Of a stretch of 64,000 bases of DNA, positions 6,595-22,322 are shown one piece after another. The DNA lies in NCBI RefSeq assembly GCF_000340475.1, contig NZ_CM001792.1, positions 3,399,253-3,463,252 of the forward strand, read 5' to 3'. The translations under genes were made by a program, and so were the position numbers. This stretch comes from Oceanobacillus kimchii X50 (GTDB lineage Bacteria; Bacillota; Bacilli; Bacillales; Amphibacillaceae). Positions within the stretch are counted from its first letter, which is position 1; every line of letters begins with the position of its first letter. The notes below the pieces were generated by a model, which was not told the DNA's origin, ran no database searches, and saw only the letters and a program-made list of their open reading frames with translations.

Positions 6595-7302
6595 TTACAT
6601 ATTAAAATTAACGATATATTTATGAAGCTCAGTATTATAATATGCAAACGAATACTCCACAAGCCGGTCTCTACTATCATATGAATAACGTTCACGTTGT
6701 AATAACGGTTGTTTCTCTACTTCCAGCAGTTCGGCAACATTTTGCTCAGGAACAGATACACCGAATTCATCTTTAAACCGATAAAATCGAACCCCTTGCT
6801 GATATAACATATCATAAAGGGAATTAACAAACACTTCCGGGTCTTTTGGAAGTGCAATATGTGCAGATATATAATGACGAAAGTGAATATATGGTTTACC
6901 ATTTAGTATATATAGGCGTTCAATACAATAGACTTCCTTACTGTTTAATTGATGTAGCGGCTCCGAAAGTTCTTCAACAACTGTTAAATCAATAAACTTC
7001 TTACGTAATTGATGACCTTCTCCAATTAAATATTCAGAAAAACGTTGTCCTTTCGATAATTTGGAAACCACCTGATTCGCCAAAACCGTTGTGCCGATAC
7101 CACTTCTTTTCTCTACATAGCCTTCTTGAGCAAGCTGTTCTACTGCTTTACGAATCGTTATTTTGCTTACTTCAAACTCCCTCTCCAATTCTGGTTCAGA
7201 CGGAATCAGAGCATTGACCTTATATTGTCCATTAATAATTCTTTCTTTCAAGATGTCTTTCACTTGAATATATAAAGAACCTTCCCTTAAATTTAATTTC
7301 AT
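6595..7302 (-). CDS. GntR/HutC-family transcriptional regulator (UTRA domain)
   Basis: A 235-residue regulator. The N-terminal winged helix of GntR type (about residues 5-70) contains IPSEPELEREFEVSKITIRKA, and a UTRA effector domain (about 95-230) follows. HutC/NagR-type regulators usually bind sugar or sugar-acid ligands and repress their own catabolic operon. It is the last gene of the amino-sugar locus, 7 bases after the KDG kinase gene, so it is almost certainly co-transcribed. The likely ligand is a pathway intermediate such as glucosaminate or KDG (inference). Candidate operators are at 17667-17697 and 20823-20834. Confidence 0.85.
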   Translation of the reverse strand: MKLNLREGSLYIQVKDILKERIINGQYKVNALIPSEPELEREFEVSKITIRKAVEQLAQEGYVEKRSGIGTTVLANQVVSKLSKGQRFSEYLIGEGHQLRKKFIDLTVVEELSEPLHQLNSKEVYCIERLYILNGKPYIHFRHYISAHIALPKDPEVFVNSLYDMLYQQGVRFYRFKDEFGVSVPEQNVAELLEVEKQPLLQRERYSYDSRDRLVEYSFAYYNTELHKYIVNFNM

Positions 7303-7309
7303 GATTGAT

Positions 7310-8323
7310 CTACCTTTCTATATCGGGATCATGATTACTTACTAAAGCCCATACTTCTTTATCAGATGAAATTGGCGAATCACCATACGTTGTATGCGCT
7401 AAAATTCCGGCAGCCATGGCAAATTGAATGGTATCTTCTTTCGAGAATTGTTGACGTAATCCATGCATTATACCACTCGCAAATCCATCGCCTCCACCAA
7501 TACGATCGAAAATTCGAAACACATAACGTTTAGAGAAATAAAAATTCGCATTTGTATATAAAAATCCTTCTATCTCATGCTTATTATCTTGTAATTGCTC
7601 TCTTATTGTACCGGCTATTGTTTGAATTCCATATTTCTCTGCTACTTTTGGTATAAGGTTTTGGATTTGTGACTTTCGCTCTACCTCATCCGTAGCGTAG
7701 CCTAAAACGTGTATAGCATCTTTTTCCGTCATAAAACATACATCACTTAACTGCAACATTTGTTGATAATCATTTCTCGCTCGTTGGATATTATTTTTCC
7801 AAAGTTTCGGCCGGAAATTACAATCAAATACTACTAAAATTCCACGTTCCTTTGCTTTTTCTGCGATAGAAAACATCGTATTTCTAGCATTCTCAGACAC
7901 TGCTAATCCGATGCCGCAAAAGTGAACCATATCTGTATCTAGTAATATACGTTCCATCTGATAATCCGATGCTACTGCTTGGTGAAAAGCACTGATTTCT
8001 CTGTTGGTATATGTGACTACGGATGGACGCAAGTCGAAACCATCTTCTAAAAAGAACATCCCGATATGGTCGCCATCTCGACGAATGTCTTGCACTCCAA
8101 CTCTTAACGATTGCAAATACGATAAAGCTGCTTCTCCAATATTATTATCAGGCAATGTTGTTATGAGGCTCGTTTGGTTGCCAAATTTTCCTAAAGCAGT
8201 AAGCACATTCACTCCTGTACCTGAAAAAGACATATCTAATGCGCGAGTTTGCTCCAACTTCTTGTTACCTGGAACATGTAGTCGCATCATTACCTCTCCA
8301 AATGCCTTCACTTTATTCGCCAT
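7310..8323 (-). CDS. PfkB-family sugar kinase, probable 2-keto-3-deoxygluconate (KDG) kinase
   Basis: A 337-residue PfkB/ribokinase-fold kinase. The N-terminal MRLHVPG and GTGVNVLTALGKFG segments bind sugar, and DCNFRPKLW is the D-x-N-x-R-x-x-L-W signature typical of KDG kinases. The C-terminal anion-hole motif reads GGGDGFASG instead of the common GAGDAF but keeps the catalytic Asp (about residue 278). It would phosphorylate KDG to KDPG in the cytoplasm. The start overlaps the end of the aldolase gene by 11 bases, so the two are translationally coupled. This supports a route in which an unphosphorylated sugar acid is deaminated first and phosphorylated second. The substrate call is inference from motif and context. 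Confidence 0.8.
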   Translation of the reverse strand: MANKVKAFGEVMMRLHVPGNKKLEQTRALDMSFSGTGVNVLTALGKFGNQTSLITTLPDNNIGEAALSYLQSLRVGVQDIRRDGDHIGMFFLEDGFDLRPSVVTYTNREISAFHQAVASDYQMERILLDTDMVHFCGIGLAVSENARNTMFSIAEKAKERGILVVFDCNFRPKLWKNNIQRARNDYQQMLQLSDVCFMTEKDAIHVLGYATDEVERKSQIQNLIPKVAEKYGIQTIAGTIREQLQDNKHEIEGFLYTNANFYFSKRYVFRIFDRIGGGDGFASGIMHGLRQQFSKEDTIQFAMAAGILAHTTYGDSPISSDKEVWALVSNHDPDIER

Positions 8324-9062
8324 ACTGATCTCCTAATTGTTTTACAAAATGATAGATAGACTGTACATCCTCTAACTTCGTACGACCGGTAGACGCATCA
8401 ATAATAGAAGAATAGACATGTGGAATAACTTTCTTCACACCTGCTCGGAGGGCAATCTCCATAATCTGCGAACTATTTTGTACATCTATACCCCCTGTTG
8501 GCTCTAAATAAAAGCCTTCTCTAGCACAAGCCTCAGCTACTGCTTCATACTCTTCTAAACGACTCGTTCCGCCCATCGGAAAAAACTTCAGTGAATTCCC
8601 GCCCATTTCTTTTGATAACTGGATCGCTGCTTCCACTTCCACAATGATTGGATCTTTATTCGTTGGACCTGTAGCAATATCGACAAAACCTGGTCGCCCC
8701 GTAGGTTTTACAAGGCTATTAATCATCGTTTGGGAATGGTTTACAGTAGCTCTTGTATATCCTACTTTTGGGAAAACTTGATTAATATGCCTCGGTTGGT
8801 ATTCACGACTAATATCTGCAACCATCTTCCATTGCTCTGGGTTCCCTCCACCTAAGCCGAGTGAAATGGCTCCATCTAGTTCTTTATCATATACTTTTAT
8901 ATCTTCTAACGCTTCATGTACACTATTATAATTGCTAGATAATAACCCAATGAGTACATGACCATCGGTTGCTTCATAGATTTCCTTAGCATTTGTTATA
9001 TCGGCAGATAATACATTTAAACAAATTCGACCGTTATAAAAGTTATGAGCCATCTCATCCAC
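8313..9062 (-). CDS. dgaF: KDPG aldolase, DgaF type (DUF1341 family)
   Basis: A 249-residue protein of the DgaF/EF_0839 family, unrelated in sequence to classical Eda. Conserved stretches include LNVLSADITNAKEIYEA, DGAISLGLGGGNPEQW, HINQVFPKVGYTRA, SLKFFPMGG and LEPTGGID. The Salmonella DgaF splits 2-keto-3-deoxy-6-phosphogluconate to pyruvate and glyceraldehyde-3-phosphate. It overlaps dgaE by 8 bases upstream and the kinase gene by 11 bases downstream, so the three enzymes are tightly coupled. MDEMAHN is the chosen start; a second ATG at codon 4 is possible. Confidence 0.83.
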   Translation of the reverse strand: MDEMAHNFYNGRICLNVLSADITNAKEIYEATDGHVLIGLLSSNYNSVHEALEDIKVYDKELDGAISLGLGGGNPEQWKMVADISREYQPRHINQVFPKVGYTRATVNHSQTMINSLVKPTGRPGFVDIATGPTNKDPIIVEVEAAIQLSKEMGGNSLKFFPMGGTSRLEEYEAVAEACAREGFYLEPTGGIDVQNSSQIMEIALRAGVKKVIPHVYSSIIDASTGRTKLEDVQSIYHFVKQLGDQYGE

Positions 9063-10134
9063 CTCCTATTAGGTTAGAAATTTTTTGTACAATAATATCC
9101 ATATCTCCTGGCAATAATGGTCGAGGGTCAATATCAAAATGTCCTTCATTTGCGTGGTAATCCCTTGTGTAAATAGCAGGAATTCCGTCTTTTAATTGAT
9201 TTACTAATGTTGAAGCATCCAAAGGGGCTTCTGCACCAATATGTACTCTCCCACGGTAAATTTCTCTTCCCGCTTCATCAGCCTCAATAGTTATCTTGAT
9301 TCCGCTCCATTCGTTCAGTTGCTTTAGTTTATCTAAATCTGCTAATTGGTGCGATACATCCGTTTTTTCGGTGACAAATTGTTCTAATGCATGCAACAGT
9401 CCGAAGATAGCTTCTTTCCCTACTTTCATTGCTCTCCCGATTCCTTTCATGTGGAGAGTTGCATACTTTATAAGTTCAGTTTTCCCAGCTAATATGCCAG
9501 ATGTAGGACCTTGAATCGCTTTGGAACCACTAAAGATTACAAGGTCTGCGAGCTCTCCATATCCAGTAATATCTTCTTCTGCCGCTGCATCAACTATAAG
9601 TGGAAGATTTTTTTGACGTGCCCATTCACTTACCTCTTGTAACGAAGGCATATTTTTTTGCACACAATGATGGGATTGTACAAAGAGAATTGCTGCTGTA
9701 TTCTCCGATACTGACTGGTCGATTTGATCGATGCGACAGCCGTTCGCATACCCTATCCCTTTAGGTTTTCCACCGCCTACATGTATCATCACATCTACCG
9801 GAGCTCCATAATCTACTTGATGCCCCTTCATAATTAATATTTCTCGTTGAAGAAAAGCATCTTCATATAAGTGCTCAACAAGGTAGCGATCATCTTTTGA
9901 TATAACCCCTGCTACTGCAAGGGATATCGCTGCGGATGCAGAATTTGTAATTAACGCATGTTCTGTATGTACATACTTCGCTACTTGTTGTCCGGATTCC
10001 TGCACTAGTTCTTCCATTTTAAAATAGTGTCTTCCTCCTCTAGCAATGCCTTCGAGCACATAATCAGACATCGTAGACACACCCAATATACTCATTCTTC
10101 CACTTGCATTAATCACTTTTTTCAAGTTCAACAT
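9055..10134 (-). CDS. dgaE: PLP-dependent ammonia-lyase, DgaE/SelA-like (glucosaminate or glucosaminate-6-phosphate deaminase)
   Basis: A 359-residue fold-type I PLP enzyme of the SelA-like DgaE group. It starts LKKVINASGRMSILG, has TNSASAAISLAVAG in the cofactor region, VDAAAEED with the Asp that contacts the pyridine nitrogen, and SGSKAIQGPTSG with the PLP lysine at about residue 210. DgaE removes ammonia from D-glucosaminate-6-phosphate to give KDPG. Here a KDG kinase is encoded in the same operon, so the substrate may instead be unphosphorylated D-glucosaminate, giving KDG (inference). It overlaps the upstream amidohydrolase gene by 26 bases. The start is supported by GGAGGGAATT upstream. 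Confidence 0.82.
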   Translation of the reverse strand: MLNLKKVINASGRMSILGVSTMSDYVLEGIARGGRHYFKMEELVQESGQQVAKYVHTEHALITNSASAAISLAVAGVISKDDRYLVEHLYEDAFLQREILIMKGHQVDYGAPVDVMIHVGGGKPKGIGYANGCRIDQIDQSVSENTAAILFVQSHHCVQKNMPSLQEVSEWARQKNLPLIVDAAAEEDITGYGELADLVIFSGSKAIQGPTSGILAGKTELIKYATLHMKGIGRAMKVGKEAIFGLLHALEQFVTEKTDVSHQLADLDKLKQLNEWSGIKITIEADEAGREIYRGRVHIGAEAPLDASTLVNQLKDGIPAIYTRDYHANEGHFDIDPRPLLPGDMDIIVQKISNLIGGG

Positions 10135-11218
10135 AATTCCCTCCTATGATGACTGCTTCAGCATTAATAAGTGAATCTCCATGAATACTCGCACCGAATG
10201 AATCCGTTAATTTTTTTGATGTTTCTTTTACTGTGAAAAAAGTTAAGTCTGCAATCGATCCAGGTTGTAAGCTTCCTAATTCCGGTTTACTTAATATTTT
10301 TGCTGGTTTTATCGTAACCGCTTCGATGACCTCTTCTAAACTATATCCTAACGCTAAAAATTTACTTAATGTTGTTTCCATATTATAGACAGGTCCATTC
10401 TTTTGATTGTTTTGATAAATATCGGTTCCTAAACTATCAAAGTAGACTCCTTGTTGTTTCGCTTTTTGTGCAATTCTAAACGAAAAGCTCGAGCTTCCAT
10501 GACCAACATCTAAATACACCCCTCTATCAATAGCATCTAATAATGAGGGCTCTACAGATCCATCTTCTCTAAAAATATGATTATTTTCTTTTTCATGATA
10601 ACAGTGCGTTAGAATATCTCCTTTTTTCATATAACTTAATACTTTGCTTAATTCAGGCGGAGCTGTACCGACATGCACCATTAATGGCAGTGCTAATTTA
10701 TTACGAAAAGTCTCAGCTATAATCAACGGTTGTATGCCATTCCCACAAACAACACTTGCACTCATTCGGGCTTTTAATCCAACTATAAATTGCGGATATT
10801 TCTCCACTGTTTGCTGAATCGCGTCAAATGATAGATTACCTAAATCTGAAAGTTCATCCTGACGCATCAGTCCAATTCGGGATATATTTAAAAAAGCGAA
10901 GACTCTCGTTTTTGCCGCTTGTGCAATTTGGTAGAATTCATCAACGTTATCTGCACCGCTGCTACCAGCATCTACAATCGTGGTTACACCTGTTTTGTAG
11001 CCAATTTGATCTGGTATCGCACAATACGGTTTATATTTTGGAAATGCATGTGTATGAAGGTCAATCCAACCTGGGGAAACATACATACCAGCTGCATCAA
11101 AAATTACATCACCTTGAACTGTAGTCGTTTCTGCTACTTCTACAATTCGCTGATTATCAATTACTATATCTACGGTTGCTCCATTTACTAGCGTTGCATT
11201 CTTTACAATTTGTACCAT
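10109..11218 (-). CDS. Amidohydrolase/deacetylase family metallohydrolase (EF_0837-like)
   Basis: A 369-residue amidohydrolase-superfamily protein. Metal-binding elements are in order: DLHTHAFP (His-x-His), VGLKARMS (bridging Lys), LMVHVG and ILTHCYHE (two His), and DSLGTDIY (Asp). Relatives of the EF_0837 family sit next to DgaE- and DgaF-like genes in other bacteria, as here. The most economical role is deacetylation of N-acetylglucosaminate to glucosaminate, supplying DgaE (inference). The frame is open to 11269, but AAGGAG lies 9 bases before the ATG at 11218, which gives the natural N-terminus MVQIVKNA. It overlaps dgaE by 26 bases. Confidence 0.8.
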   Translation of the reverse strand: MVQIVKNATLVNGATVDIVIDNQRIVEVAETTTVQGDVIFDAAGMYVSPGWIDLHTHAFPKYKPYCAIPDQIGYKTGVTTIVDAGSSGADNVDEFYQIAQAAKTRVFAFLNISRIGLMRQDELSDLGNLSFDAIQQTVEKYPQFIVGLKARMSASVVCGNGIQPLIIAETFRNKLALPLMVHVGTAPPELSKVLSYMKKGDILTHCYHEKENNHIFREDGSVEPSLLDAIDRGVYLDVGHGSSSFSFRIAQKAKQQGVYFDSLGTDIYQNNQKNGPVYNMETTLSKFLALGYSLEEVIEAVTIKPAKILSKPELGSLQPGSIADLTFFTVKETSKKLTDSFGASIHGDSLINAEAVIIGGNYVELEKSD

Positions 11219-11323
11219 GGTATATACTCCTTCTCGAATAGCGCTGCAGCTAATTGATACTTCCCCCAAAATATTTTATCTATCTTGCATGTAACAGGCA
11301 GTAACCCCACACGGAATGAAGTT

Positions 11324-12892
11324 TCAATTTATTGTTACTGGTAGACCACCTAGAATGTCGCCTTTCCCGAACACAGTACTCGCAGCTACTTCCAATGCTG
11401 GGTAAGATACTTCATATGTACATATACATGCTTGAAGCTCCGGGAGTATAGCTACATCGTAAGGACTTTTCATTACGATTGCGATTACTGGAACATCATT
11501 TGCGGCAAGTATTTCTAAAAACAATTGTTGAACTGGATGTTGGGCTAAATATTGGACACCGAATATAACTGCATCGTACTGCTTCCAATGTTCTATTTGT
11601 TCATGTATATATTCTTCCGTCCAATCCTCTGTTAATGTTATATTTTTGGCATGTGGCTGATATGCACAAATTACATCATAAAGACGAATTGCTGCATGCG
11701 ACGAATCCTCTGCTGCCGACTGTACAGCCGCTAATGGTGTGACTACTGCCATATCGCTACCACTATCAATCGGTATCAGCCCATGATTATAAACCATTGT
11801 CACACCTTGACGATAAGCTTCCTTAGCCAATTCACGATGGTCATTTCCTCCGACAAAAGAAGGTACACTTGCACTTGAATCTAAAACGGTATTATTCCAA
11901 TTGATATATGTATCTTTAACACGCCTAATTCGTTTTACCGATGATAAAATAGATTCTCTGCTCAATTTCCCTGACTCTACTGCTAGTTTCACTTCTTTTA
12001 GAGCACCAATTTGCTTCTGCAACGTATGCGATACCATTGCTAGGTCCACACCTGCTTGTAACGCGGCAACGACTCCTTTCTCCGTACCAATTGTTTCCGA
12101 AATCGCATTCATTTCCATACAATCCGTCGTAATTAGCCCGGTATACCCTAATTTATCTCGAAGCAATCCCGTCATTACTTCTTTGGATAATGTAGCTGGT
12201 TTATCTTTTGCGGGTTCCAATGCAGGGAAATAGATATGTGCAGACATTATCACATCGGATTCCAAGCACTCTCGAAAAGGCCGTAACTCGATATCCTCTA
12301 ACCTCCCTATATTATGGGGAATAACAGGTAAGGCTAAATGCGAATCCACTTTTGTATCACCATGACCAGGAAAGTGTTTGAGCGTCGTCACAACACCTGC
12401 ATCTTGCATACCTTTCACCGCTGCTTTTGCTAAACGAGTGACACGTTCTGGTGATTCTCCGTAAGAACGAACACCAATAACTGGATTATCTGGATTTACA
12501 TTCACATCAACTACTGGGGCCAAATTCCAATTAATCCCCAATGCTCTTAACTCTTTTCCGCTAGCATAACCTATCTGATATGCATTCTCTTCACTGTCAC
12601 TTGCGCCAATCGTCATGCCTCCAGGAAATATTGTCGTTCCTTCTCCGAGACGTCGTACTGTACCATTTTCTTGATCAACACAAATGAGTAGTGGACGTTC
12701 ATATCCTGCATCTCGTGCTTCTTTCTGCAAAGCAGCGGTTAGCGCAAGCACTTCATTAGGGCTTCCAATATTACGAGTAAAAAGAATAATGCCACCGATA
12801 TGATAATTGTGGATAAGCTGTTTGATGGATTCGGGAATAACTTTACCATCAAAACCGATTACAAACAGTTCTCCTATTGTTTTTTCAATCAT
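11324..12892 (-). CDS. nagZ: Beta-N-acetylhexosaminidase, GH3 family (NagZ type)
   Basis: A 522-residue cytoplasmic protein (no signal peptide). The GH3 TIM barrel covers about residues 1-330 and a second alpha/beta domain about 360-520. The NagZ signature KHFPGHGDTKVDSH is at residues 172-185, with the Asp-x-His catalytic pair at about D183/H185. The nucleophile Asp is in LITTDCMEM (about D257). NagZ enzymes release terminal beta-N-acetylglucosamine from oligosaccharides or muropeptides. In this operon it probably trims imported hexosamine oligosaccharides inside the cell. It lies 22 bases after the yesL-like gene and 105 bases before the amidohydrolase gene. Confidence 0.87.
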   Translation of the reverse strand: MIEKTIGELFVIGFDGKVIPESIKQLIHNYHIGGIILFTRNIGSPNEVLALTAALQKEARDAGYERPLLICVDQENGTVRRLGEGTTIFPGGMTIGASDSEENAYQIGYASGKELRALGINWNLAPVVDVNVNPDNPVIGVRSYGESPERVTRLAKAAVKGMQDAGVVTTLKHFPGHGDTKVDSHLALPVIPHNIGRLEDIELRPFRECLESDVIMSAHIYFPALEPAKDKPATLSKEVMTGLLRDKLGYTGLITTDCMEMNAISETIGTEKGVVAALQAGVDLAMVSHTLQKQIGALKEVKLAVESGKLSRESILSSVKRIRRVKDTYINWNNTVLDSSASVPSFVGGNDHRELAKEAYRQGVTMVYNHGLIPIDSGSDMAVVTPLAAVQSAAEDSSHAAIRLYDVICAYQPHAKNITLTEDWTEEYIHEQIEHWKQYDAVIFGVQYLAQHPVQQLFLEILAANDVPVIAIVMKSPYDVAILPELQACICTYEVSYPALEVAASTVFGKGDILGGLPVTIN

Positions 12893-12914
12893 TTGCTACC
12901 ACCTCTTTCTACAT

Positions 12915-13532
12915 TTATTTATTCTGCACTTCATATTTTGCAAAAGTTTTCGAAACTCCCCACATTAAAATGTAGGCTGTTACACTTCCTCCAAACAAAA
13001 ATAGTAATGCTGGTAAAGAATAAAAAGTAATAGATAACAGCAGACCAATTCCCACTAATAAAACCACCGTTAAAATAGGATGAATGATTCCTATAATAAA
13101 TGGCCATTTGATATAGTCCATGGATTTTAAATTAAAGTGAACATAGATTGGAAAGAAAAAAGCAACTACCATGACATATAAAATTAAAATAACGACAACA
13201 CTAAACTGAACCATCTGATAAATAAGACTTGTTTGTGTCCCAAGTATTTGGAATTCTATCGTTAGAAGGTATCCTATTGCCACTAGCAAAAGTCCTAATC
13301 CATTTGATTTTACAAATTCTTGACGAAATGTCTTCCAAAACAATGGAAAAATAGTAATATCCTGCTCACCCATATTCCACTTCCGAACCACTGCAAACAT
13401 TGCTACGGTTGCTGGCATAAGACCAAATATTCCTAACCCTAATATAGTAAAAGCCACCCAGAGAATATTTAAATATGCAAAACGTGTTATCCAAACGGCT
13501 ATTGTATAGTATCCTTGTGCAATACTCGTCAT
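12915..13532 (-). CDS. YesL-like membrane protein (DUF624)
   Basis: A 205-residue integral membrane protein with about five hydrophobic helices (around residues 15-50, 75-95, 100-130, 145-165 and 170-195). It has the DUF624 N-terminal pattern, a hydrophobic stretch followed by GLMPATVAMFAVVRKW. Proteins of this family are regularly encoded beside CUT1 sugar ABC transporters of the Lpl/Yte type in Bacilli, and a role accompanying the transporter is assumed but not proven. It sits between the permease gene (108 bases upstream) and nagZ (22 bases downstream). Confidence 0.78.
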   Translation of the reverse strand: MTSIAQGYYTIAVWITRFAYLNILWVAFTILGLGIFGLMPATVAMFAVVRKWNMGEQDITIFPLFWKTFRQEFVKSNGLGLLLVAIGYLLTIEFQILGTQTSLIYQMVQFSVVVILILYVMVVAFFFPIYVHFNLKSMDYIKWPFIIGIIHPILTVVLLVGIGLLLSITFYSLPALLFLFGGSVTAYILMWGVSKTFAKYEVQNK

Positions 13533-13640
13533 CTATCTCACCTCTCTACTCAAATCATTGTAAACAGAGACAAAAGTAGCTATCAATTCTATTACAACCT
13601 CTAGTTTCACTTGCACTGTTCCACTTTTGCCTCCGTTTAT

Positions 13641-14537
13641 TTATTCCTTCACCGAACCAATTAGAACTCCCTTTACAAAGAAACGTTGTAAAAATGGATA
13701 TACAATTAATAATGGTAGTGCAGAAACAATGATTACTGCATATTTTACTAAGGAAGCTGTTTTTACTTGTTCTGCGAACGATTGTGCAGAACCAGCAGCA
13801 TTGGAAATACTACTTGCATTTACTTCATTCAAGATTAAAATTTGCCGAAGTATCAGCTGTAATGGAAACTTATCTTCTGTTCGCAAATAAATTAAAGCAT
13901 TAAAGTACTGATTCCATAAAGCTACCCCATGAAAGAGTGCCATTACGGCAATAATTGGTAATGATAACGGTAGCACCACTTTAATAAATAAGTAAAAGTC
14001 ACTTGCCCCATCAATTTTAGATGCTTCGACGAGTTGATCAGGTATTGTTTGTTGAAAGAATGTTCGAGCAACAAGAATCGACCAAGCTCCTACAACACCT
14101 GGGATCACTATCGCCCACATTGTATCGAGCATTTGCAAATTACGAACAACTAAGTACGTTGGGATAAGCCCTCCATTAAATAACATCGTGAATAAAATAA
14201 ACCATAACCAAAGCTTCTTTCCCAATAATTCTTTACGGGACAAGGCATATGCTGCTGGCAATAAAACAAACAAGTGTACAAGCACACCAACGATCGTATA
14301 TATAATCGTATTTTTATATCCCGTCCAAATCGCATCATTTTGGAAGACTCGTTGGAACCCATCAAAAGTAATATCCACCGGCCAAAGCCACATTTTCCCT
14401 GTGTTCACAGCTTGAGGATCGCTGATGGATGCGCTCAGCACAAAAATTAGTGGATAAATGATGATTATTGTAATGATCGATACAAAGAGTATATTTAACC
14501 GGTCAAAGGCTTTATCCGACAAACTAAATCTAGACAT
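13641..14537 (-). CDS. Carbohydrate ABC transporter permease, CUT1 family (LplC/YtcP-like)
   Basis: A 298-residue inner-membrane permease with six predicted helices. The cytoplasmic EAA loop is at about residues 190-215 (LVEASKIDGASDFYLFIKVVLP), where the ATPase docks. A typical C-terminus (RFFVKGVLIGSVKE) closes it. It forms the transporter with the permease gene 15 bases upstream and the binding protein at 15875-17500. No ATPase gene is present in the locus; CUT1 systems of Bacilli commonly share an MsmX-type ATPase encoded elsewhere. Substrate is probably an amino-sugar oligosaccharide or aldonate (inference from neighbours). Confidence 0.87.
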   Translation of the reverse strand: MSRFSLSDKAFDRLNILFVSIITIIIIYPLIFVLSASISDPQAVNTGKMWLWPVDITFDGFQRVFQNDAIWTGYKNTIIYTIVGVLVHLFVLLPAAYALSRKELLGKKLWLWFILFTMLFNGGLIPTYLVVRNLQMLDTMWAIVIPGVVGAWSILVARTFFQQTIPDQLVEASKIDGASDFYLFIKVVLPLSLPIIAVMALFHGVALWNQYFNALIYLRTEDKFPLQLILRQILILNEVNASSISNAAGSAQSFAEQVKTASLVKYAVIIVSALPLLIVYPFLQRFFVKGVLIGSVKE

Positions 14538-14552
14538 GTTGCATCCTCCTTC

Positions 14553-15488
14553 CTACCATAAGCTGTTCTCACTAAATTTTCGTGCGATTTGATTAACGGT
14601 AATTAAAAGAACGATATTAATCGCCGATTCAAACAAACCAACAGCAGCAGCAAAACTATATTGACCTTGTAGGATACCCGTTTCATATACAAACGTTTGG
14701 ATAATATCCGACGTCTCCGAATTCAATGTATTTTGCATGAGTAGCACTTTCTCAAAGCCAATTTGCATAAAGTTTCCGATATTTAAAATAAATAATACGA
14801 CGATGGTTGGCATAATACTTGGAATATTTATTCGGAAAATACGTTGCAATCTCGTGGCACCATCCACTCTTGCTGCTTCATGAAGCTCCGGGTTCACCCC
14901 TGCAAGAGCTGCCAAATAAATAATTGTACTCCACCCTAATGTTTGCCATTGACCAGACCAGACAAAGATATGTCGGAACCAATCTGGACTTGTTAAAAAC
15001 GGAATTGGTTCCATCCCTAAAGCACGTATAAGATGATTGATTAACCCTGTATTGGGATCTAAAAATGCAACAAGCATTCCTACGACAACGACGACAGAAA
15101 TAAAATGTGGTGCATACGTTAAGGTTTGCGTCCATTTCTTAAATGCCCCATTACGTAATTCATTAAATGCTAGTGCTAAAATAATCGGTAATGGGAATAG
15201 TATGAGCATGTATAGATTTAAGACGAGCGTATTTTTTAATAATCTCCAGAAGTAATATGAGCTAAAAAAACGCTCAAAATGTTCAAAACCAACCCAAGGA
15301 CTTCCCCAGATTCCTAAGTTCGCAAAGTAATCTTTAAAAGCAATTTGAACGCCATACATTGGTATATAATGAAAAATAAAAAAGTACGAAACTACAGGTA
15401 AAAGAAATATATATAATTGCCAATTTGCAAGTAAATTCTTTTTTATTTTGTAGCCTCTACCCCTATGAGCGGGCGCTAGTTTTGCCAT
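14553..15488 (-). CDS. Carbohydrate ABC transporter permease, CUT1 family (LplB-like)
   Basis: A 311-residue permease that begins with a basic N-terminus and a first helix (about residues 25-45) followed by YIPMYGVQIAFKDY, the LplB/YteP signature. The EAA loop is HEAARVDGATRLQRIFRINIPSI. It pairs with the LplC-like permease gene 15 bases downstream. The start has a strong AAGGAGG site. The gap to the binding-protein gene upstream is 386 bases and contains a stem-loop and a MITE-like element, so permease expression may be lower than, or partly separate from, that of the binding protein. Confidence 0.87.
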   Translation of the reverse strand: MAKLAPAHRGRGYKIKKNLLANWQLYIFLLPVVSYFFIFHYIPMYGVQIAFKDYFANLGIWGSPWVGFEHFERFFSSYYFWRLLKNTLVLNLYMLILFPLPIILALAFNELRNGAFKKWTQTLTYAPHFISVVVVVGMLVAFLDPNTGLINHLIRALGMEPIPFLTSPDWFRHIFVWSGQWQTLGWSTIIYLAALAGVNPELHEAARVDGATRLQRIFRINIPSIMPTIVVLFILNIGNFMQIGFEKVLLMQNTLNSETSDIIQTFVYETGILQGQYSFAAAVGLFESAINIVLLITVNQIARKFSENSLW

Positions 15489-15689
15489 ATTATTGTCTAC
15501 CTCCTTAAACAGCTAACTAATATACAACCTTGACACGTTTACCATATCTTCCTAATGAAACAACCTTGATTGGCAATTATGTATACTTTTGAACATTGCT
15601 TCACTTACAAGTCTGAAGTTGTATTGTCATGCTGGTTACTAGGAAGTAATGCTGTTCAACAGAATCTACTCTCTTTTTCTTTTTAGCGC

Positions 15690-15805
15690 GTGCTCAAAAA
15701 GGACCGAGAAAAGCAAGCCAACGAGCTTCCACAGGACGTGGGCTATTTTAGTAGAAGATCCCCCAGATAATTATCATTTTCACCGGACTTTTTGAACAAC
15801 CTCTT
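15690..15805. mobile_element. MITE-like element, copy 2
   Basis: A ~116-bp non-coding element between the binding-protein and permease genes. Ends are GTGCTCAAAAAGG (15690-15702) and CCGGACTTTTTGAACAACCT (from 15783), forming an inverted repeat around CTCAAAAAG/CTTTTTGA. Its right end, TTTTCACCGGACTTTTTGAA and on through CAACCTCTT, is the same as in the element at 44975-45134. The interior shares GAAAAGCAAGC but otherwise differs, so this looks like a rearranged or shorter copy. No transposase is encoded. Confidence 0.65.
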
Positions 15806-15818
15806 TTAGCAAAAGGTA

Positions 15819-15851
15819 GAAGAGAGAGGAAAAGGGGGAACCTCTCTCTTC
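15819..15851 (-). terminator. Stem-loop after the binding-protein gene (attenuator or mRNA-stabilising)
   Basis: GAAGAGAGAGG (15819-15829) pairs with CCTCTCTCTTC (15841-15851), an 11-bp perfect stem with an 11-nt loop, 23 bases after the solute-binding protein stop. The following bases on the transcript are only moderately T-rich. Such hairpins often raise the level of binding protein over permeases by partial termination or by protecting the 3' end. Confidence 0.6.
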
Positions 15852-15874
15852 AAATCCATCTGTAATCAAAATAA

Positions 15875-17500
15875 TTAATTCTCTGTATAACGGTTATAAG
15901 CATTTTGATGTACTTCTACAACCTCTTCTAATCCCATTTGGTTTAGTGTGTCTACATAATTATCCCAGTTAGCTAAATCTTCATCACCAGTAATAAATTT
16001 GTCGCGCATTTCTTCGATATAGTTGTTGATATCTTGACCAGTAGATTGCAAGATAATATTCTCCTCATCGGTAAATGTGAAACGCGGCCAAATTTCTTCT
16101 GGAACAAAAGGTTCAATCTTCTCGGCAGCTTCCATGGATTGAGGAGCAGTTTCTCCACCTTGGAAGTAATCTGCTTTAATAATCCCATTAATCGATCCTA
16201 ACCATGTTAACTGTTTCGATAACGCTTGTTCGAAAGTAATATCTCCTTCAGGATTTAAGATGTGATCCTTATAAACCGCTTCACCGTCTTCTATTTCAAA
16301 TGTTTCACCTTCTACCCCCATATAGTAAAGTTCCGCACCTTCATCACTATAGAAATGGTCCATCCAACGTACAGTTGCGGCTGGATTCTCATTCTCACTT
16401 GTGATTACTAAGTTTGCTGGATCCCATACAGAAGAAGAAAGTTTATTATAGGTTTGATGTCCTTCTGGTCCTTCTAACGCTGCAACACTGTTATATTGAG
16501 CTCCAATATCTTCCCCAAATAATTCAATTGGATCATAGAAAATCATGCTTCCATATAAATTATCAGATGCATTCGCTAGGAATTGCCCCCACTCGATCGT
16601 AAAGATACTTTGGTCAATCAATCCTTCTTCATACAGCTTGTTAATATATTCAAGCATTTGCTTATATTCATCTGTTATAGCAAAGTTACGAACTTCACCA
16701 GAAGAATCTAAGTCATAATTCATATTCGACGTACCTTGATTCATCACACCAAAAGAACCAGCTAACCATTGAACTAATTCTTGGATTTGCGTCCCTCCAT
16801 AAGGAATCGTTTTTCCTCCACCTACTGGATCAAGCTCTTTCACGGCTTTCAAGTATTCATAGAATTCATCTGTTGTTTCGGGTATTTCCATTCCTAATTC
16901 ATCTAGCCACTCTTCATTCACCCATGGACGAGCACTCAGACGTAAGGATAAGAAATCCTCCTCAATAAGTGCTGGCATGGAGTAAATGTTTCCATCTGGA
17001 AACGTAACAGCTTTACGGATACTTGGATCCTGCTCCATTAACGCTGTAAGATTTGGAGCGTATTGTTCAATCAGATCATTTAACGGTAGGAATACTTCTT
17101 GCCCTCCATATCTTAATAAATCCGTACTCGTAAGCTGCGATAGGAAGAATGCGTCTGGTAAATCTCCACTACCTAAAGCTAAATTACGATTTTCTTCTAA
17201 AGCATCTGGACTCACAAGATCCCAATTCACATTGATGTTTGTTTGATCTCTATACTCATTCCAAATTAGGATATCGTTCCAATTATTGTCTTCATTTTGA
17301 GCAGGCTTGTTTGCAAAAAAAGTTAGCTCTAGCTCTTCATCGACAATAGGCATTCCTGACTCATTTACACCTTCATTTGCGGCAGTCGCATCACCGCCGT
17401 CACCACCATCTTCGCCACCTTCATCATCGCTATTACAAGCTGATAAAGCGGTTACAAACGATATTAGTAAAAGAATTAACAATAATCTTTTTACCTTCAC
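15875..17500 (-). CDS. Extracellular solute-binding lipoprotein of the CUT1 ABC transporter (LplA-like)
   Basis: A 541-residue lipoprotein. A signal peptide of about 21 residues ends in the lipobox L-S-A-C (lipidated Cys22), then comes a Gly/Asp/Glu-rich linker and a large family 1 solute-binding domain. The sequence carries LPDAFFLSQL and LDELGMEIPETTDEFYEYLKA, typical of LplA/YtcQ-type proteins of 500-550 residues. It binds the sugar ligand at the outer face of the membrane and delivers it to the two permeases downstream. A recognisable sigma-A promoter with an overlapping inverted repeat lies 150-200 bases upstream, so this gene starts a transcription unit of its own within the locus. Confidence 0.87.
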   Translation of the reverse strand: MKVKRLLLILLLISFVTALSACNSDDEGGEDGGDGGDATAANEGVNESGMPIVDEELELTFFANKPAQNEDNNWNDILIWNEYRDQTNINVNWDLVSPDALEENRNLALGSGDLPDAFFLSQLTSTDLLRYGGQEVFLPLNDLIEQYAPNLTALMEQDPSIRKAVTFPDGNIYSMPALIEEDFLSLRLSARPWVNEEWLDELGMEIPETTDEFYEYLKAVKELDPVGGGKTIPYGGTQIQELVQWLAGSFGVMNQGTSNMNYDLDSSGEVRNFAITDEYKQMLEYINKLYEEGLIDQSIFTIEWGQFLANASDNLYGSMIFYDPIELFGEDIGAQYNSVAALEGPEGHQTYNKLSSSVWDPANLVITSENENPAATVRWMDHFYSDEGAELYYMGVEGETFEIEDGEAVYKDHILNPEGDITFEQALSKQLTWLGSINGIIKADYFQGGETAPQSMEAAEKIEPFVPEEIWPRFTFTDEENIILQSTGQDINNYIEEMRDKFITGDEDLANWDNYVDTLNQMGLEEVVEVHQNAYNRYTEN

Positions 17501-17651
17501 TTTGCTTTCCCCTCCCTAGAAATATATATTTCTACAAAACTGTTGATCCCCCTATGCTTCATCAAACCAAATCTATCGTTTATGTATCACCCCTCCATTA
17601 AAATAAAATTAAGAAATTATAAAACTTAAGTAAAATTTCTACTTATTCTAA

Positions 17652-17697
17652 ATAGTAACACTATTCTAATGTTACGTCAATATAACATTATAATGTT
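17652..17697 (-). promoter_or_regulatory. Sigma-A promoter with overlapping palindromic operator, upstream of the binding-protein gene
   Basis: On the minus strand, TTGACG (17680-17675) is separated by exactly 17 bases from TACTAT (17657-17652), a good -35/-10 pair. The -35 box is embedded between TAATGTTA (17667-17674) and its inverse TAACATTA (17683-17690), and a third half-site makes the perfect 14-bp palindrome AACATTATAATGTT (17684-17697). Three spaced half-sites around a promoter are what an operator looks like. The GntR/UTRA protein of this locus is the obvious candidate ligand, though the sequence is not the usual NagR/DasR box. Confidence 0.65.
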
Positions 17698-17756
17698 TGT
17701 AATGAATTTTTTAGGAAGCTGCTACTTCCTTCATGTTAAAACACTTATTTTTTTAT

Positions 17757-18761
17757 CTACATCACTTTTACACAAACTGGTCTTGGCAGTGCGTGCCTCT
17801 GATTGGAATGTACTAATTCATTCTTCTGTGTTTTTCTCATTACCATTAACTCATTACTATGTTCGTTGGCGATAATTAAATGTTTTTCACCAGGGACCTT
17901 TGATTGAAAATGCCTTGGCCATTTGCTGCCTAATCTCGAAATCGAATAGTTCTTTAGAAGTCCATTGTTTATTATTTGATAGGTTGTAATAGAATCGTGC
18001 CCTCGATTTGACACATATAGTAATTTTCCGTTGCATTGTACTTCTGCACTATAATTTTCTTGTTTACAATTACTTGGTAACGTGGTTATTCTTTGCTGTA
18101 ACTGTACGAACTCCTTTTCTACATCATATGCATATACGAGTACGGTGGAATCAAATTCATTTACAACGTATAATACTGCTATTTCTGGATGGAAATCAAT
18201 ATGCCTTGGTCCTGAAGGATAAGGTGTTTCCGCTTCAAATCGCTGCTGAAGTTTTCCTGTCTCTTGGTTAAAATAGAGGAAATATAACTTATGCTTTCCT
18301 AGATCTGTTGCAACATAATAATCACTTTCAGGCAAGCGCCGTATGGTATGCAATCTTGATTCAGTTGAGAAATGGACGCAATCGGTCTCTTCTTCAATCT
18401 TTCCATTTTCATTTGTTCCATAAACGACTATATTGCCACCAGTATAATTACTTACAAAAACATAGTCACCATTTACCTCAACATAACAAGGCCCACCATG
18501 GGTAGGATGACGACTCCATTCTATTAATTGCTTGTGAACTGGATTAATTCCATAACAGATGACCTCACCTTGTTCAACCTCGCTAATAGCATATAGACAA
18601 GATTTACTCGTGTTAACTTCTAAAAAAGAGGGGTGCTCAATTCCATCAAAAGCTGCTACTTTCTCAAGCTTACCGATACGTGGGTCAAAAGAAAGCCAGT
18701 GAATTGTTTCTTCATTCCTTTCTCCATAACTCCCTACAAATACATCGAATAATGAATTCAT
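17757..18761 (-). CDS. Lactonase family protein (6-phosphogluconolactonase-like beta-propeller)
   Basis: A 334-residue protein of the YkgB/lactonase beta-propeller family. It starts VFVGSYGER, contains HPTHGGPCYVEV, VSNYTGGNIVVY, SGPRHIDFHPE, YVVNEFDSTV, YVSNRGHDSI and WPRHF, the repeated blade motifs of the family. It would open a sugar 1,5-lactone to the aldonic acid. In this locus that fits hydrolysis of an N-acetylglucosamine lactone, the C1-oxidised form of the sugar (inference). The start at 18761 is chosen because GGAG lies 6 bases upstream; an ATG at 18773 is also in frame. It is 18 bases after the GH20 gene, hence the same transcript. Confidence 0.8.
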   Translation of the reverse strand: MNSLFDVFVGSYGERNEETIHWLSFDPRIGKLEKVAAFDGIEHPSFLEVNTSKSCLYAISEVEQGEVICYGINPVHKQLIEWSRHPTHGGPCYVEVNGDYVFVSNYTGGNIVVYGTNENGKIEEETDCVHFSTESRLHTIRRLPESDYYVATDLGKHKLYFLYFNQETGKLQQRFEAETPYPSGPRHIDFHPEIAVLYVVNEFDSTVLVYAYDVEKEFVQLQQRITTLPSNCKQENYSAEVQCNGKLLYVSNRGHDSITTYQIINNGLLKNYSISRLGSKWPRHFQSKVPGEKHLIIANEHSNELMVMRKTQKNELVHSNQRHALPRPVCVKVM

Positions 18762-18779
18762 TCGCTTCTCCATCCATTT

Positions 18780-20696
18780 CTAGTAAATTGGTAAAACATG
18801 AAAAAATACATTAGGGGATGCCATACGATAATAATAACTACCCCACCCGAGGCCAGTAGATTGTTCGAATCTTGGTGAATAATAAAGTCTCTCTTGATCT
18901 AACTCCTCAATTTGATCTAATTCACCGTGTACAAAACGTTCAATGCGATCTTTTGTAGTTTCTAGACGATTCAATAAACCTCCATAACGTATATCAATTA
19001 CTTCCCAACCAAACGGTTTATTCATTGTTAGCCATTGTCTGCGATGTGCAGATCGAAGTTCACAAACATCACTTAATAATGGCACTATCTTTGTATCTAC
19101 TAATTGTGTTAACTCAGACAACTGTTTCTTATCATACGCCTGTTTTAAATTTACTCCGAGAGATGCTTTATTCGCTAATACAGTGCATAGCTTTTTAGGT
19201 ACGTCAAAATGATATTTACCGTATTCGTGCGCTTCCTTTTGCTTCCGTTCGATTTGTTTAGAAAGATCTTTATAATACTCGTCTAAATCCAGTCCTTCTA
19301 TATGTTTATCAAAAACACCTAATAATGGATCTTGCCATAAAAGGAACTTAGATGGATTCGTCTGCTGAAGATTTCCATCCGCTACACCAGGTGGTTGATC
19401 CAACTTGTTCAATAATAATAAGGCATCTGCATCAATTCCAGTTATAAATGTTGCTCTCTGTTTGACTTGCAATTCATCTACTTGCTCGCTAAATGCATGT
19501 TCTGCGTAATATTGTAATCCATAAAGAGAAGTGTACACATTGTTTTCATATCCATCATCACCCCATAAAGTCACAAACACATCACGAATTCCGTTATCTT
19601 TACATGCTTGAAGTGCTTTTTCACTCGCGCTTAAAGAAATATGATAGTTTGGTGCGAACGTATTCCACACCCACATGCCTCCTGCGAACGCTGGAGTCCT
19701 GCCAAACCGTTTTAATTGACCTATCATATTGTCATAGTGATCATAATCCGTTTGGTTATACTGCCAATACATAAATTGAACATTTTCTGGTAATTGTTGA
19801 ATAATATATTCTGGCAGATTCGTAGATTTGTCGTACTGATCTCCTGTTTCCGATGCTAACTTTAAAAACATATCACTCCACATCATCGCTTCTAATTCAT
19901 ATTTATCCGTGATTTCTAATACCCTTGTTAAATGTTTCGACATCATCTCAAAGCGGGATTGATAACCATGAATATTTAGGAACCTTCCTCTACCTACTTC
20001 TTCCGCTTCGTCCATACCTATATGAATACGTTTACTGCGGAATGGTTTTGTAACCGCATGTATCATTCTATCTAGCAAATCATACGTATCTTCACTTTCC
20101 AGCAACAATGCACCTCTTGTATCCTTGTATTTATAGGCAGCATCCCATTTTAGAAATTCCTCCAAATGAGCCAGTGTCTGGATACACGGTATTAGCTCTA
20201 TCCCGAATAATGCAGCGTATTCATCCAATTCACGTAGTTCGACTTCTGTGTAACGTCCACGCATGTAACCAAAGTAAGGTTCATCACTCACTTCATAGGT
20301 ATCCTCCATATAAAGCATGATGCTATTATGCCCCATCATAGCTAACTTTCGGATAAAATCTTTTAATGTTGTTAATTTCATGGTCATATTCCGTGAAAGG
20401 TCGAACATCGGTCCAACAGTTGAAAATTGCATTTTTTCGTTTGTTTCCAGAGGAGTATCTTCTTGTTGTAGATGTTGAAGCAGCATACTAAAAGCGCGAA
20501 AGAATTGATTAGGGTATGCGTATGTGATGGTCCCATTTCCTTGTCTATAAGAGATTGCTAAGCCATTGAGTGTTTCTTCCTGCACACAAGTAATGTTAAT
20601 CTCGGATCGTTCAGCCAATGAGAAATCATAGCTTGCTTGTAACTCGCTTAACCCTTTCATGATAATGGCACTATCGCCTGTTATCGTAAATTTCAT
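18780..20696 (-). CDS. Beta-N-acetylhexosaminidase, GH20 family
   Basis: A 638-residue protein with a small N-terminal alpha/beta domain (about residues 1-90), a GH20 TIM barrel (about 95-400) and a long helical C-terminal region (about 430-638). The catalytic Asp-Glu pair is D229-E230 in HIGMDEAEEVG; family features MMGHNSIMLYMEDTYE and LIPCIQTLAHLEEFLKW are present. No signal peptide is visible, so it is probably cytoplasmic and acts on imported N-acetylhexosamine glycosides. It is the first gene of the amino-sugar locus. AAAGGATGGG serves as ribosome site. Confidence 0.85.
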   Translation of the reverse strand: MKFTITGDSAIIMKGLSELQASYDFSLAERSEINITCVQEETLNGLAISYRQGNGTITYAYPNQFFRAFSMLLQHLQQEDTPLETNEKMQFSTVGPMFDLSRNMTMKLTTLKDFIRKLAMMGHNSIMLYMEDTYEVSDEPYFGYMRGRYTEVELRELDEYAALFGIELIPCIQTLAHLEEFLKWDAAYKYKDTRGALLLESEDTYDLLDRMIHAVTKPFRSKRIHIGMDEAEEVGRGRFLNIHGYQSRFEMMSKHLTRVLEITDKYELEAMMWSDMFLKLASETGDQYDKSTNLPEYIIQQLPENVQFMYWQYNQTDYDHYDNMIGQLKRFGRTPAFAGGMWVWNTFAPNYHISLSASEKALQACKDNGIRDVFVTLWGDDGYENNVYTSLYGLQYYAEHAFSEQVDELQVKQRATFITGIDADALLLLNKLDQPPGVADGNLQQTNPSKFLLWQDPLLGVFDKHIEGLDLDEYYKDLSKQIERKQKEAHEYGKYHFDVPKKLCTVLANKASLGVNLKQAYDKKQLSELTQLVDTKIVPLLSDVCELRSAHRRQWLTMNKPFGWEVIDIRYGGLLNRLETTKDRIERFVHGELDQIEELDQERLYYSPRFEQSTGLGWGSYYYRMASPNVFFHVLPIY

Positions 20697-21181: not shown

Positions 21182-21667
21182 CTAGTTCATTCCGACGCTC
21201 TCTATTTGGAATTGTTCGTTTAATGATATCATTTCAAGTAACCCGAGCGCTGTTTCTGCACCTTTATTTCCAGCTTTCGTTCCTGCTCTTTCTACAGCTT
21301 GCTCAATCGACTCTGTTGTTAATACACCAAACAATACTGGTATGTTGCTATTCATCCCTACTTGGGCTACTCCCTTGGAGACTTCATTACAAACATAATC
21401 ATAATGTGTAGTTGCTCCGCGGATAACTGTTCCTAACGTTAATACACCGTCATATTTTTGTGAATTAACTGCACGTTTAGTTATAAAAGGAATTTCAAAA
21501 GCGCCAGGAACCCAGATCACATCGATATTTTCTCTAGCTACGCCGTGACGAATAAGCATATCTTCTGCACCGGATAATAGTCTCGCAGTAATAAACTCAT
21601 TAAATCTACTTGTTACAATCGCAATCTTCTTTCCCTGTCCATTATAGTTTCCTTCATATATTGTCAT
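21182..21667 (-). CDS. ribH: 6,7-dimethyl-8-ribityllumazine synthase
   Basis: A 161-residue lumazine synthase. It joins the ribitylamino-pyrimidine to 3,4-dihydroxy-2-butanone-4-phosphate, the penultimate step of riboflavin synthesis. Signature motifs are [51 protein letters not shown] (with the catalytic His) and [13 protein letters not shown]. The frame is open upstream to 21760, but the start at 21667 is backed by GAGGAG and the normal [11 protein letters not shown]-terminus. It is 20 bases after ribB and is the last gene of the FMN-riboswitch operon. Confidence 0.93.
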
Positions 21668-21687
21668 ACGATCAAACTCCTCTACGA

Positions 21688-22311: not shown

Positions 22312-22322
22312 ATTTACCCTCC

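Follow-up and report, generated by a model that had tools for sequence, protein, structure and literature searches.

A candidate operon for the import and degradation of C1-oxidised chito-oligosaccharides in Oceanobacillus kimchii X50 and related Bacilli

Gene content and enzyme families of the operon

In Oceanobacillus kimchii X50, a run of twelve genes, all on the minus strand, combines glycoside hydrolases (GH), a CUT1-type carbohydrate importer, a cassette of enzymes related to those of amino sugar acid catabolism and a GntR/UTRA regulator. It occupies positions 6595-20696 of the stretch analysed here (the window, 64,000 nucleotides, corresponding to 3,399,253-3,463,252 of a single-contig 3.83-Mb genome). 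An earlier, sequence-only reading had described it as a candidate operon for the catabolism of oxidised N-acetylglucosamine (GlcNAc). Scans of ten of the proteins with Pfam and NCBIfam confirmed the ten families of that list, and the assignment of the two permeases rests on synteny and on their identity to those of related loci. The features, from upstream to downstream, are as follows (PLP, pyridoxal phosphate; KDG, 2-keto-3-deoxygluconate; KDPG, its 6-phosphate; 'named loci' are those of named genomes, defined below).

18780..20696, minus strand: GH20C-type exo-beta-N-acetylhexosaminidase, 638 aa (C-terminal domain PF18088 plus PF00728; GMDEA motif)
17757..18773, minus strand: seven-bladed propeller lactonase of PF10282, 338 aa (family scan; adjoins GH20C in nine other named loci)
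17684..17697, no strand: operator palindrome AACATTATAATGTT, with 3 bp between it and the -35 box of the downstream solute-binding protein (SBP) promoter
17652..17680, minus strand: sigma-A-like promoter of the transporter/cassette part (TTGACG at 17675-17680, 17 bp, TACTAT at 17652-17657; aligned in related loci)
15875..17500, minus strand: CUT1 solute-binding lipoprotein (SBP), 541 aa (family scan; 74-84% identity in ten related loci)
14553..15488, minus strand: CUT1 permease A (82-90% identity in ten related loci, and synteny)
13641..14537, minus strand: CUT1 permease B (83-92% identity in ten related loci, and synteny)
12915..13532, minus strand: YesL/DUF624 membrane protein (family scan)
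11324..12892, minus strand: GH3 beta-N-acetylhexosaminidase (family scan; KHFPGHGDT..DSH stretch)
10109..11269, likely start 11218, minus strand: EF_0837-type amidohydrolase (AmdH), proposed N-acetylglucosaminate deacetylase (TIGR03583 and invariant residues)
9055..10134, minus strand: DgaE-like PLP ammonia lyase (PLP Lys205, His155/His156, Arg294/324/338)
8313..9062, minus strand: DgaF-like KDPG aldolase (family scan)
7310..8323, minus strand: PfkB kinase resembling KDG kinases (KdgK; family scan and solved-structure matches)
6595..7302, minus strand: GntR/UTRA regulator, proposed ligand-released repressor at the operator (family scan and operator distribution)

The central enzyme genes overlap one another, as had been reported, by 26 bp (AmdH/DgaE), 8 bp (DgaE/DgaF) and 11 bp (DgaF/KdgK), and a gap of 7 bp separates KdgK from the GntR gene. 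AmdH scores 563.5 bits against TIGR03583 (EF_0837; cut-off 432.15), and its start is probably the ATG at 11218 rather than the TTG at 11269, because a ribosome-site-like AAGGAG stands just before the former. Its residues H57, H59, K151, H184, H207 and D268 (numbered after the first row of a 16-sequence alignment), which we take to be metal ligands, are invariant in all 16 aligned sequences. The aldolase belongs to the KDGP_aldolase family PF07071, lies above the TIGR03581 cut-off and also passes the DgaF equivalog model NF047796 (354 bits, cut-off 300), while the best solved matches of the kinase are an uncharacterised PfkB protein (3ktn) and a KDG kinase (2afb). The GMDEA motif of the GH20C protein aligns with that of the GH20C structures 5a69 and 2epk. 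The GH3 protein barely passes its beta-N-acetylhexosaminidase model (207.6 against a cut-off of 207), and its KHFPGHGDT..DSH stretch is presumably the NagZ-type motif.

The lyase passes the DgaE-family model TIGR01437 (448.6 bits, cut-off 385.3) and falls below the equivalog model of the Salmonella-type DgaE, NF047797 (355.7 bits against 600). Across the 89 DgaE proteins of the cassettes described below (counting the window and duplicates), the PLP lysine, the second histidine and the arginines matching Salmonella R301, R332 and R346 are kept in all 89 and the first histidine in 87. In the docking passage of the study on the Salmonella enzyme, these three arginines lie near the phosphate, and Arg226 near the carboxylate, of a manually docked model (PMC9529869). 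The residue matching Arg226 is a lysine in 76 of the 89 proteins (the window included) and an arginine in 10, and the same three arginines are also found in another member of the DgaE family, 8t7j. The PLP lysine is numbered 217 in the passages concerned (PMC9529869) and 213 by a hand count of the aligned chain; the numbers of the histidines and arginines agree.

Inspection by eye revealed a lipobox in the SBP and no signal peptide in the GH20C, GH3 and lactonase proteins, which should hence act in the cytoplasm. Neither an ATPase nor a sugar dehydrogenase is present among the ten scanned operon proteins, and no search was aimed at either elsewhere in the genome.

Recurrence of the cassette, its operator and its link to AA10 genes

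Relatives of AmdH (E up to 1e-40) occur in 27 of 299 genomes of the order. We opened 20 neighbourhoods besides the window (leaving out G168, G021, G272 and G228, these four at <45% identity, as well as G077 and G284) and found AmdH, DgaE and DgaF to be consecutive in all 20, with KdgK in 19, the contig of the remaining locus (L031) ending after DgaF. Together with the loci of named genomes, which are the best 80 of 432 confirmed matches, this yielded 100 loci, or 95 distinct ones once five duplicates are set aside. Among these 95, DgaE is present in 89, DgaF in 79, the kinase in 84 and GntR in 79, with some of the absences reflecting gene calling or contig ends. The window has the AmdH-DgaE-DgaF-KdgK-GntR gene order of the Bacilli.

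The importers vary. A GntP gluconate-type symporter is encoded in 37 of the 95 loci, a phosphotransferase system (PTS) EIIC of the lac/cellobiose/chitobiose family in five, four of which also have a MupG-like protein, and a MupG-like protein in six overall; the symporter and PTS variants are consistent with alternative importers for the same monomer. In the PTS variant of L058 (7311-10007), and also in L057, L032/L087 and L108, the genes for EIIC and a MupG-like hydrolase stand before the cassette, and the hydrolase may cleave a phosphorylated oxidised dimer. The kinase gene occurs in these loci as well, which fits the release of a non-phosphorylated aldonate there too. A further arrangement is seen in L033 (11276-17771; similar in L036, L039 and L065), where the cassette diverges from an ABC transporter and nucleoside hydrolase-like and adenine deaminase-like genes.

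The arrangement of the window, defined by GH20C, the lactonase and a CUT1 SBP at least 70% identical, recurs in nine other named loci (L050-L056, L059 and L061; L050 and L051 come from two strains of the same species), and L078 has the transporter and lactonase without GH20C. The pairing of a lactonase with hexosaminidases, which the sequence-only reading had singled out as unusual, is thus real and at the same time recurrent. DgaF is missing from L059 and L061, which keep DgaE and the kinase, and in the Oceanobacillus loci L050-L053 DgaE, DgaF and KdgK are all missing between AmdH and GntR (from gene maps, with a tblastn check of L050 and L053). Each of these four strains has a second AmdH-DgaE-DgaF-KdgK cassette elsewhere (L105, L115, L116 and L068). 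The record of L061, named Roseburia sp. 1XD42-34, resembles a Bacillales locus of the Virgibacillus kind, and its organism name may be wrong.

A conserved palindrome before the -35 box emerged from the aligned SBP promoters of related loci; in the window it reads AACATTATAATGTT at 17684-17697, followed by 3 bp, TTGACG, 17 bp and TACTAT. Allowing up to one mismatch, we counted 110 sites in the 100 loci (2.01 Mb), whereas a control palindrome of identical composition gave two. In 86 of the 95 distinct loci, a gene for AmdH, an SBP, a permease, EIIC/EIIB or GH20C is preceded by a site at a distance of up to 420 bp; this holds for 78 of 79 loci with a recognised GntR and for 8 of 16 without one. 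The nine loci without a site are L044, L045, L047, L048, L068, L089, L116, L127 and L129, and the gene maps of the first four showed no GntR relative. The AACRTTATAAYGTT operator of the Bacilli cassette, which also stands upstream of the window cassette, has 16 exact sites in 13 chosen genomes, against two for the reversed control; by their coordinates, ten of the 16 sites are at cassettes, three at AA10 genes, one upstream of an SBP gene and two between ABC exporter-like and PadR-like regulator genes. The SBP gene (L183, G126:C17:7786) lies outside a cassette and may be a further member of the regulon; the last two sites (L177 and L186) are in two Oceanobacillus genomes.

AA10 is a family of lytic polysaccharide monooxygenases (LPMO), and the genome of O. 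kimchii X50 has a single match to it, unlinked to the operon, whose protein has a CBM5/12 domain and a signal-like N-terminus, with a histidine immediately following the probable cleavage site. Its promoter carries the operator form AACATTATAATCTT, 236 bp before the start codon and before a TTGACG, with a second site, ATCGTTATAATGTT, further upstream. At up to one mismatch, the genome as a whole holds four sites; that at the SBP promoter is exact, and the two other than the SBP and AA10 promoter sites lie at the end of an open reading frame (ORF) just before an amidohydrolase-like gene and inside an SBP gene.

In related genomes, the LPMO gene can be part of the locus itself. An AA10 gene stands within two window-type loci, in L055 (759-1742; 440 bp separate it from the GH20C ORF downstream) and in L061 (14994-15842, between GntR and GH20C), and L048 (G271:C17:32800-52799) packs AA10, a CUT1 transporter, the cassette and a GH18 chitinase into 20 kb; the ORFs of the 100 loci yielded no further AA10 relative. 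L048, whose AA10 has two CBM5/12 stretches, also includes YesL, a reversed cassette without GntR, two-component-like genes and a second SBP/permease set, and seems to be a chitin utilisation locus under a different regulator. A GH18 gene likewise lies beside the cassette of L047. At the level of whole genomes, AA10 is found in seven of the nine window-type genomes searched (O. kimchii X50 included, the L051 genome left out). In the order it accompanies AmdH in 11 of 27 genomes, against 11 of 272 without AmdH (p 1.4e-7, or 8e-7 without O. kimchii X50), and in 8 of 17 genera against 6 of 99 (p 7e-5). In the class, with AmdH taken at E up to 1e-60, the corresponding figures are 32 of 58 against 17 of 340 genomes (p 2.5e-19) and 15 of 19 against 9 of 126 genera (p 4e-11). 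The co-occurrence with AA10 enzymes that had been suggested as a check is therefore borne out in both samples. A shared lifestyle as the sole cause of the association was rejected, since the control, GH10, is far more weakly associated across the 299 genomes from the order (8 of 27 against 41 of 272, p 0.05; matches over the cut-off, paired by hand).

The upstream regions of AA10 genes were scored over 750 bp against AACRTTATAAYGTT, with a Markov control giving 2.6% at up to two mismatches and 0.1% at up to one. In a first set of 18 AmdH-positive genomes, 9 of 21 upstream regions have a site at up to two mismatches and 7 of 21 at up to one, while genomes lacking AmdH have one in 0/11 and 0/15 (0/26 in all). 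The second of these AmdH-less sets comes from the 17 AA10-only genomes of the class, of which 14 were used (15 upstream regions; G112 and G140 were already covered, and G638, a fragment with a stop, was left out). Among the window-type genomes with AA10, six of seven have a site (G000 and G299-G303; not G308), against 0 of 25 genomes without AmdH (p 8e-6). Three other genomes, those of L058 and L078 and G126, also have one.

A proposed pathway and its alternatives

From families, conserved residues, synteny, co-occurrence, linkage and operator distribution, all of which were computed, we infer that the operon very probably imports and degrades C1-oxidised chito-oligosaccharides made extracellularly by a secreted AA10 LPMO. 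Once the LPMO has produced such oligosaccharides outside the cell, the CUT1 transporter would import them chiefly as the dimer chitobionate (GlcNAc-GlcNAc1A) or as the lactone of this dimer, energised by a putative unlinked and shared ATPase. The lactonase would open any lactone in the cytoplasm, and GH20C, with GH3 in O. kimchii X50, would remove GlcNAc to leave N-acetylglucosaminate (GlcNAc1A), which AmdH would deacetylate to glucosaminate. The DgaE-like lyase, the PfkB kinase and DgaF would then yield ammonia, pyruvate and glyceraldehyde-3-phosphate via KDPG, with lyase and kinase acting in either order. The GntR/UTRA protein is predicted to repress through the AACATTATAATGTT operator until released by an aldonate intermediate, and in O. 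kimchii X50 and some relatives the LPMO gene would be under the same operator. The substrates, uptake as a dimer, the order of the steps, binding of GntR to the operator and the effector are all predicted parts of this scheme.

Two further points bear on it. As described in part of one study, SmCHB converts oxidised oligomers to GlcNAc and the oxidised dimer (PMC13325158), so that a hexosaminidase cleaving the oxidised dimer is a real requirement. The split operon of L050-L053, with its second cassette, is what the pathway predicts if the importing operon stops at the first committed enzyme and glucosaminate is passed on. The earlier proposal of a Gram-positive pathway for oxidised GlcNAc gains genome-level support from the presence, co-occurrence and linkage of AA10. 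Its suggestion of a bypass of nagA/nagB can hold at most for the oxidised residue, as GH20C and GH3 would also release GlcNAc and the genome encodes a NagA.

Several observations weigh against the oxidised-chitin pathway. The lactonase is the least conserved member of the operon (32-47% identity in related loci), and GH3 is not conserved, with matches in no more than two of the other nine window-type loci from named genomes (L054, 53%; L055, 34%). No site with up to two mismatches to AACATTATAATGTT was found upstream of GH20C in the window, so that GH20C and the lactonase may be controlled separately. An ordinary GH18 chitinase was not found in the O. kimchii X50 genome, whose sole GH18 match (L138, 1438-2727) reads by eye as a LysM spore-type protein. 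The genome search gave no AA10 match in the genomes of L056 and L059, and 26 of the 58 AmdH-positive genomes of the class are without AA10. The co-occurrence counts include AmdH matches of low identity (down to 38%), and their Fisher tests ignore phylogeny save for the genus counts, with the order and class samples sharing some genomes. As to the operator, 12 of the 21 AA10 upstream regions of the first set have no site, including those of both AA10 genes of the window-type genome G308; the AA10 gene of L048 has none either (best, three mismatches); and 28 further AmdH-positive genomes of the class gave 0 of 33 regions at up to one mismatch and 1 of 33 at two (from 32 with AmdH and AA10, three being already covered and G429, with a partial AA10, left out). 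Over all AmdH-positive genomes examined, 9 of 47 have a site at AA10, against 0 of 25 without AmdH (p 0.02). The idea of the operator at AA10 genes as a general trait of AmdH-positive genomes thus failed in the class sample and was narrowed: it characterises the window-type group along with a small number of other genomes. Of the four lines that tie AA10 to the operon, presence in the same genome, co-occurrence and physical linkage stand as such, and the shared operator stands within these limits.

The order of the last steps is a matter of choice within the same substrate and is compatible with the rest of the scheme. PfkB may phosphorylate glucosaminate at C6, with DgaE acting on glucosaminate-6-phosphate as in Salmonella, so that KDG is never formed; we regard this as a real prospect, if one somewhat short of even. 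It is favoured by the arginines near the docked phosphate, kept in the window and in 89/89 cassette DgaE proteins, and by the kinase gene in 84 of 95 distinct loci; yet the arginines derive from the manual docking (in the passages of PMC9529869), recur in 8t7j and may not mark a phosphate site. The resemblance of the kinase to KDG kinases, and the Gram-negative pathway, which deaminates and then phosphorylates in the account given of it (PMC9537276), also speak for the other order. The sequence-only reading had put deamination before phosphorylation; its steps are retained and their order is left free.

A broader alternative is that the cassette is a general module for scavenging glucosaminate and N-acetylglucosaminate, with oxidised chitin one source among others, such as aldose-oxidising neighbours or other GlcNAc-capped aldonates, and the AA10 link secondary. 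The 37 of 95 loci in which a GntP symporter is encoded close to the cassette, the AmdH-positive class genomes without AA10, the lack of an operator at AA10 in most AmdH-positive genomes outside the window type and the D-glucosaminate proposed for the Bacillus cereus version (in the relevant passage of PMC4896439) all point this way. For the window type, such a view has to contend with the AA10 genes inside two loci, the operator at AA10 genes in six of seven genomes, and an operon that holds a hexosaminidase, a lactonase and an oligosaccharide-type transporter, and on balance we think it unlikely. Far less probable still is an operon for peptidoglycan or another GlcNAc glycan, with an N-acetyl amino acid as the substrate of AmdH and an incidental lactonase. 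The GH3 protein over the NagZ-like model cut-off, the MupG-like proteins of sister loci and the weakly conserved lactonase sequence could be read in its favour; it leaves the AA10 linkage and the operator unexplained, and the chemistry of DgaE requires a 2-amino acid and that of the KDG/KDPG enzymes a sugar acid, neither of which muropeptides are known to yield.

Extending the oxidised-chitin reading across the group, we consider it rather probable that the Bacilli independently assembled an oxidative chitin pathway in which a GntR/UTRA regulator and one palindrome control a conserved deacetylase-lyase-aldolase-kinase cassette served by three kinds of importer. Of these, GntP would handle the monomer, the PTS together with a MupG-like hydrolase a phosphorylated dimer, and CUT1 together with GH20C and the lactonase the dimer. 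The secreted LPMO would have been recruited to the operator in the Oceanobacillus/Virgibacillus group, such that its products induce their own producer, and a SelA/DgaE-type deaminase would replace the fold-type III enzyme of marine Gram-negative bacteria.

Known systems and biological significance

The closest parallel is ong, the oxidative chitin pathway of Pseudoalteromonas prydzensis ACAM 620, the complete form of which is reported, in the passages on its distribution, from Gammaproteobacteria and one betaproteobacterium (PMC9537276). As set out there, ong comprises an AA10 LPMO, release of GlcNAc1A by GH20, deacetylation, PLP-dependent deamination, a KDG kinase and control by a repressor (PMC9537276), all of which have actual or predicted equivalents in our scheme. 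In O. kimchii X50, an AA10 LPMO is encoded in the same genome, the candidate GH20 counterpart has the GH20C family and catalytic motif, and the candidate counterpart of the KDG kinase is the PfkB protein resembling 3ktn and 2afb. The enzymes between them are of other types. In that account OngB is D-aminoacylase-like (PMC9537276), whereas the deacetylase of the window is an EF_0837-type amidohydrolase, whose match to an N-acyl-D-glutamate deacylase structure is short and weak (3gip, E 3.5e-4). OngC is described as a fold-type III PLP enzyme, in contrast to the DgaE/SelA-type lyase of the window, which matches TIGR01437 and SelA families and no D-serine deaminase family. Further, ong is described with a monomer symporter of the SSS family, TonB receptors, a periplasmic GH20 and the RidA protein OngD; the window instead has a CUT1 transporter, GH20C without a signal peptide, a lactonase, an in-operon aldolase and GntR/UTRA. 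Neither an SSS transporter, TonB receptors nor RidA is present among the ten scanned operon proteins, and the remaining two resemble the permeases of related loci. On these grounds membership in ong was rejected.

The dga system of Salmonella uses a glucosaminate PTS, and we know of no deacetylase or kinase in it. The window shares its DgaE and DgaF homologues and the cleavage of KDPG, as far as the passages on the pathway describe it (PMC9529869). The operon has an SBP and CUT1-type permeases in the place of a PTS and, although the DgaF equivalog is passed, the DgaE equivalog is not, so that membership in dga was likewise rejected. The gluconate 'system III' of Bacillus cereus is alike in its GntR, KDG kinase, amidohydrolase, aldolase and PLP enzyme, and differs in having a GntP permease where the window has GH20C, lactonase and CUT1; the passage on this GntP version in the Bacillus cereus group suggests D-glucosaminate and itself draws no link to LPMO or oxidised chitin (PMC4896439). 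Since this version was noted there, the core cassette is not new. The predicted GlcNAc route of Natrarchaeobius, in the part that describes it, resembles ours in its chitin-eating hosts and a DgaE-type lyase proposed for glucosaminate-6-phosphate, and differs in the proposed oxidation of glucosamine by a glucose dehydrogenase, of which there is none among the scanned proteins of the window operon (PMC12343721). In two Aeromonas strains, matches to OngB and OngC are given as distant or none in the relevant passage (PMC11653859), and the terms EF0837, DgaE, Firmicutes and Gram-positive are absent from the main text of PMC12017989. Within the open-access literature, no Gram-positive GlcNAc1A pathway was recognised by title or abstract (subscription papers being outside this scope), and no paper was found on the operator sequence.

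The operon is preceded on its own strand (21182-22949) by genes whose translations read as ribH-like, as a ribB-only DHBP (3,4-dihydroxy-2-butanone 4-phosphate) synthase (207 aa) and as ribE-like.

The observation itself is real, and its interpretation is well supported at the genomic level. What would be new is an oxidative chitin route in Gram-positive bacteria, with a non-homologous deaminase, uptake of oligomers and a defined operator that in one group includes the LPMO gene. According to the open-access literature, the fate of LPMO-oxidised chitin ends has been worked out in detail in Gram-negative bacteria. If true, the pathway would explain what widespread gene clusters do whose models, TIGR03583 (EF_0837) and TIGR03581 (EF_0839), remain 'hypothetical equivalogs'. 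The physiological role of some LPMOs of the Bacilli would become testable by simple gene deletions, and the operator motif may predict which LPMOs serve nutrition.

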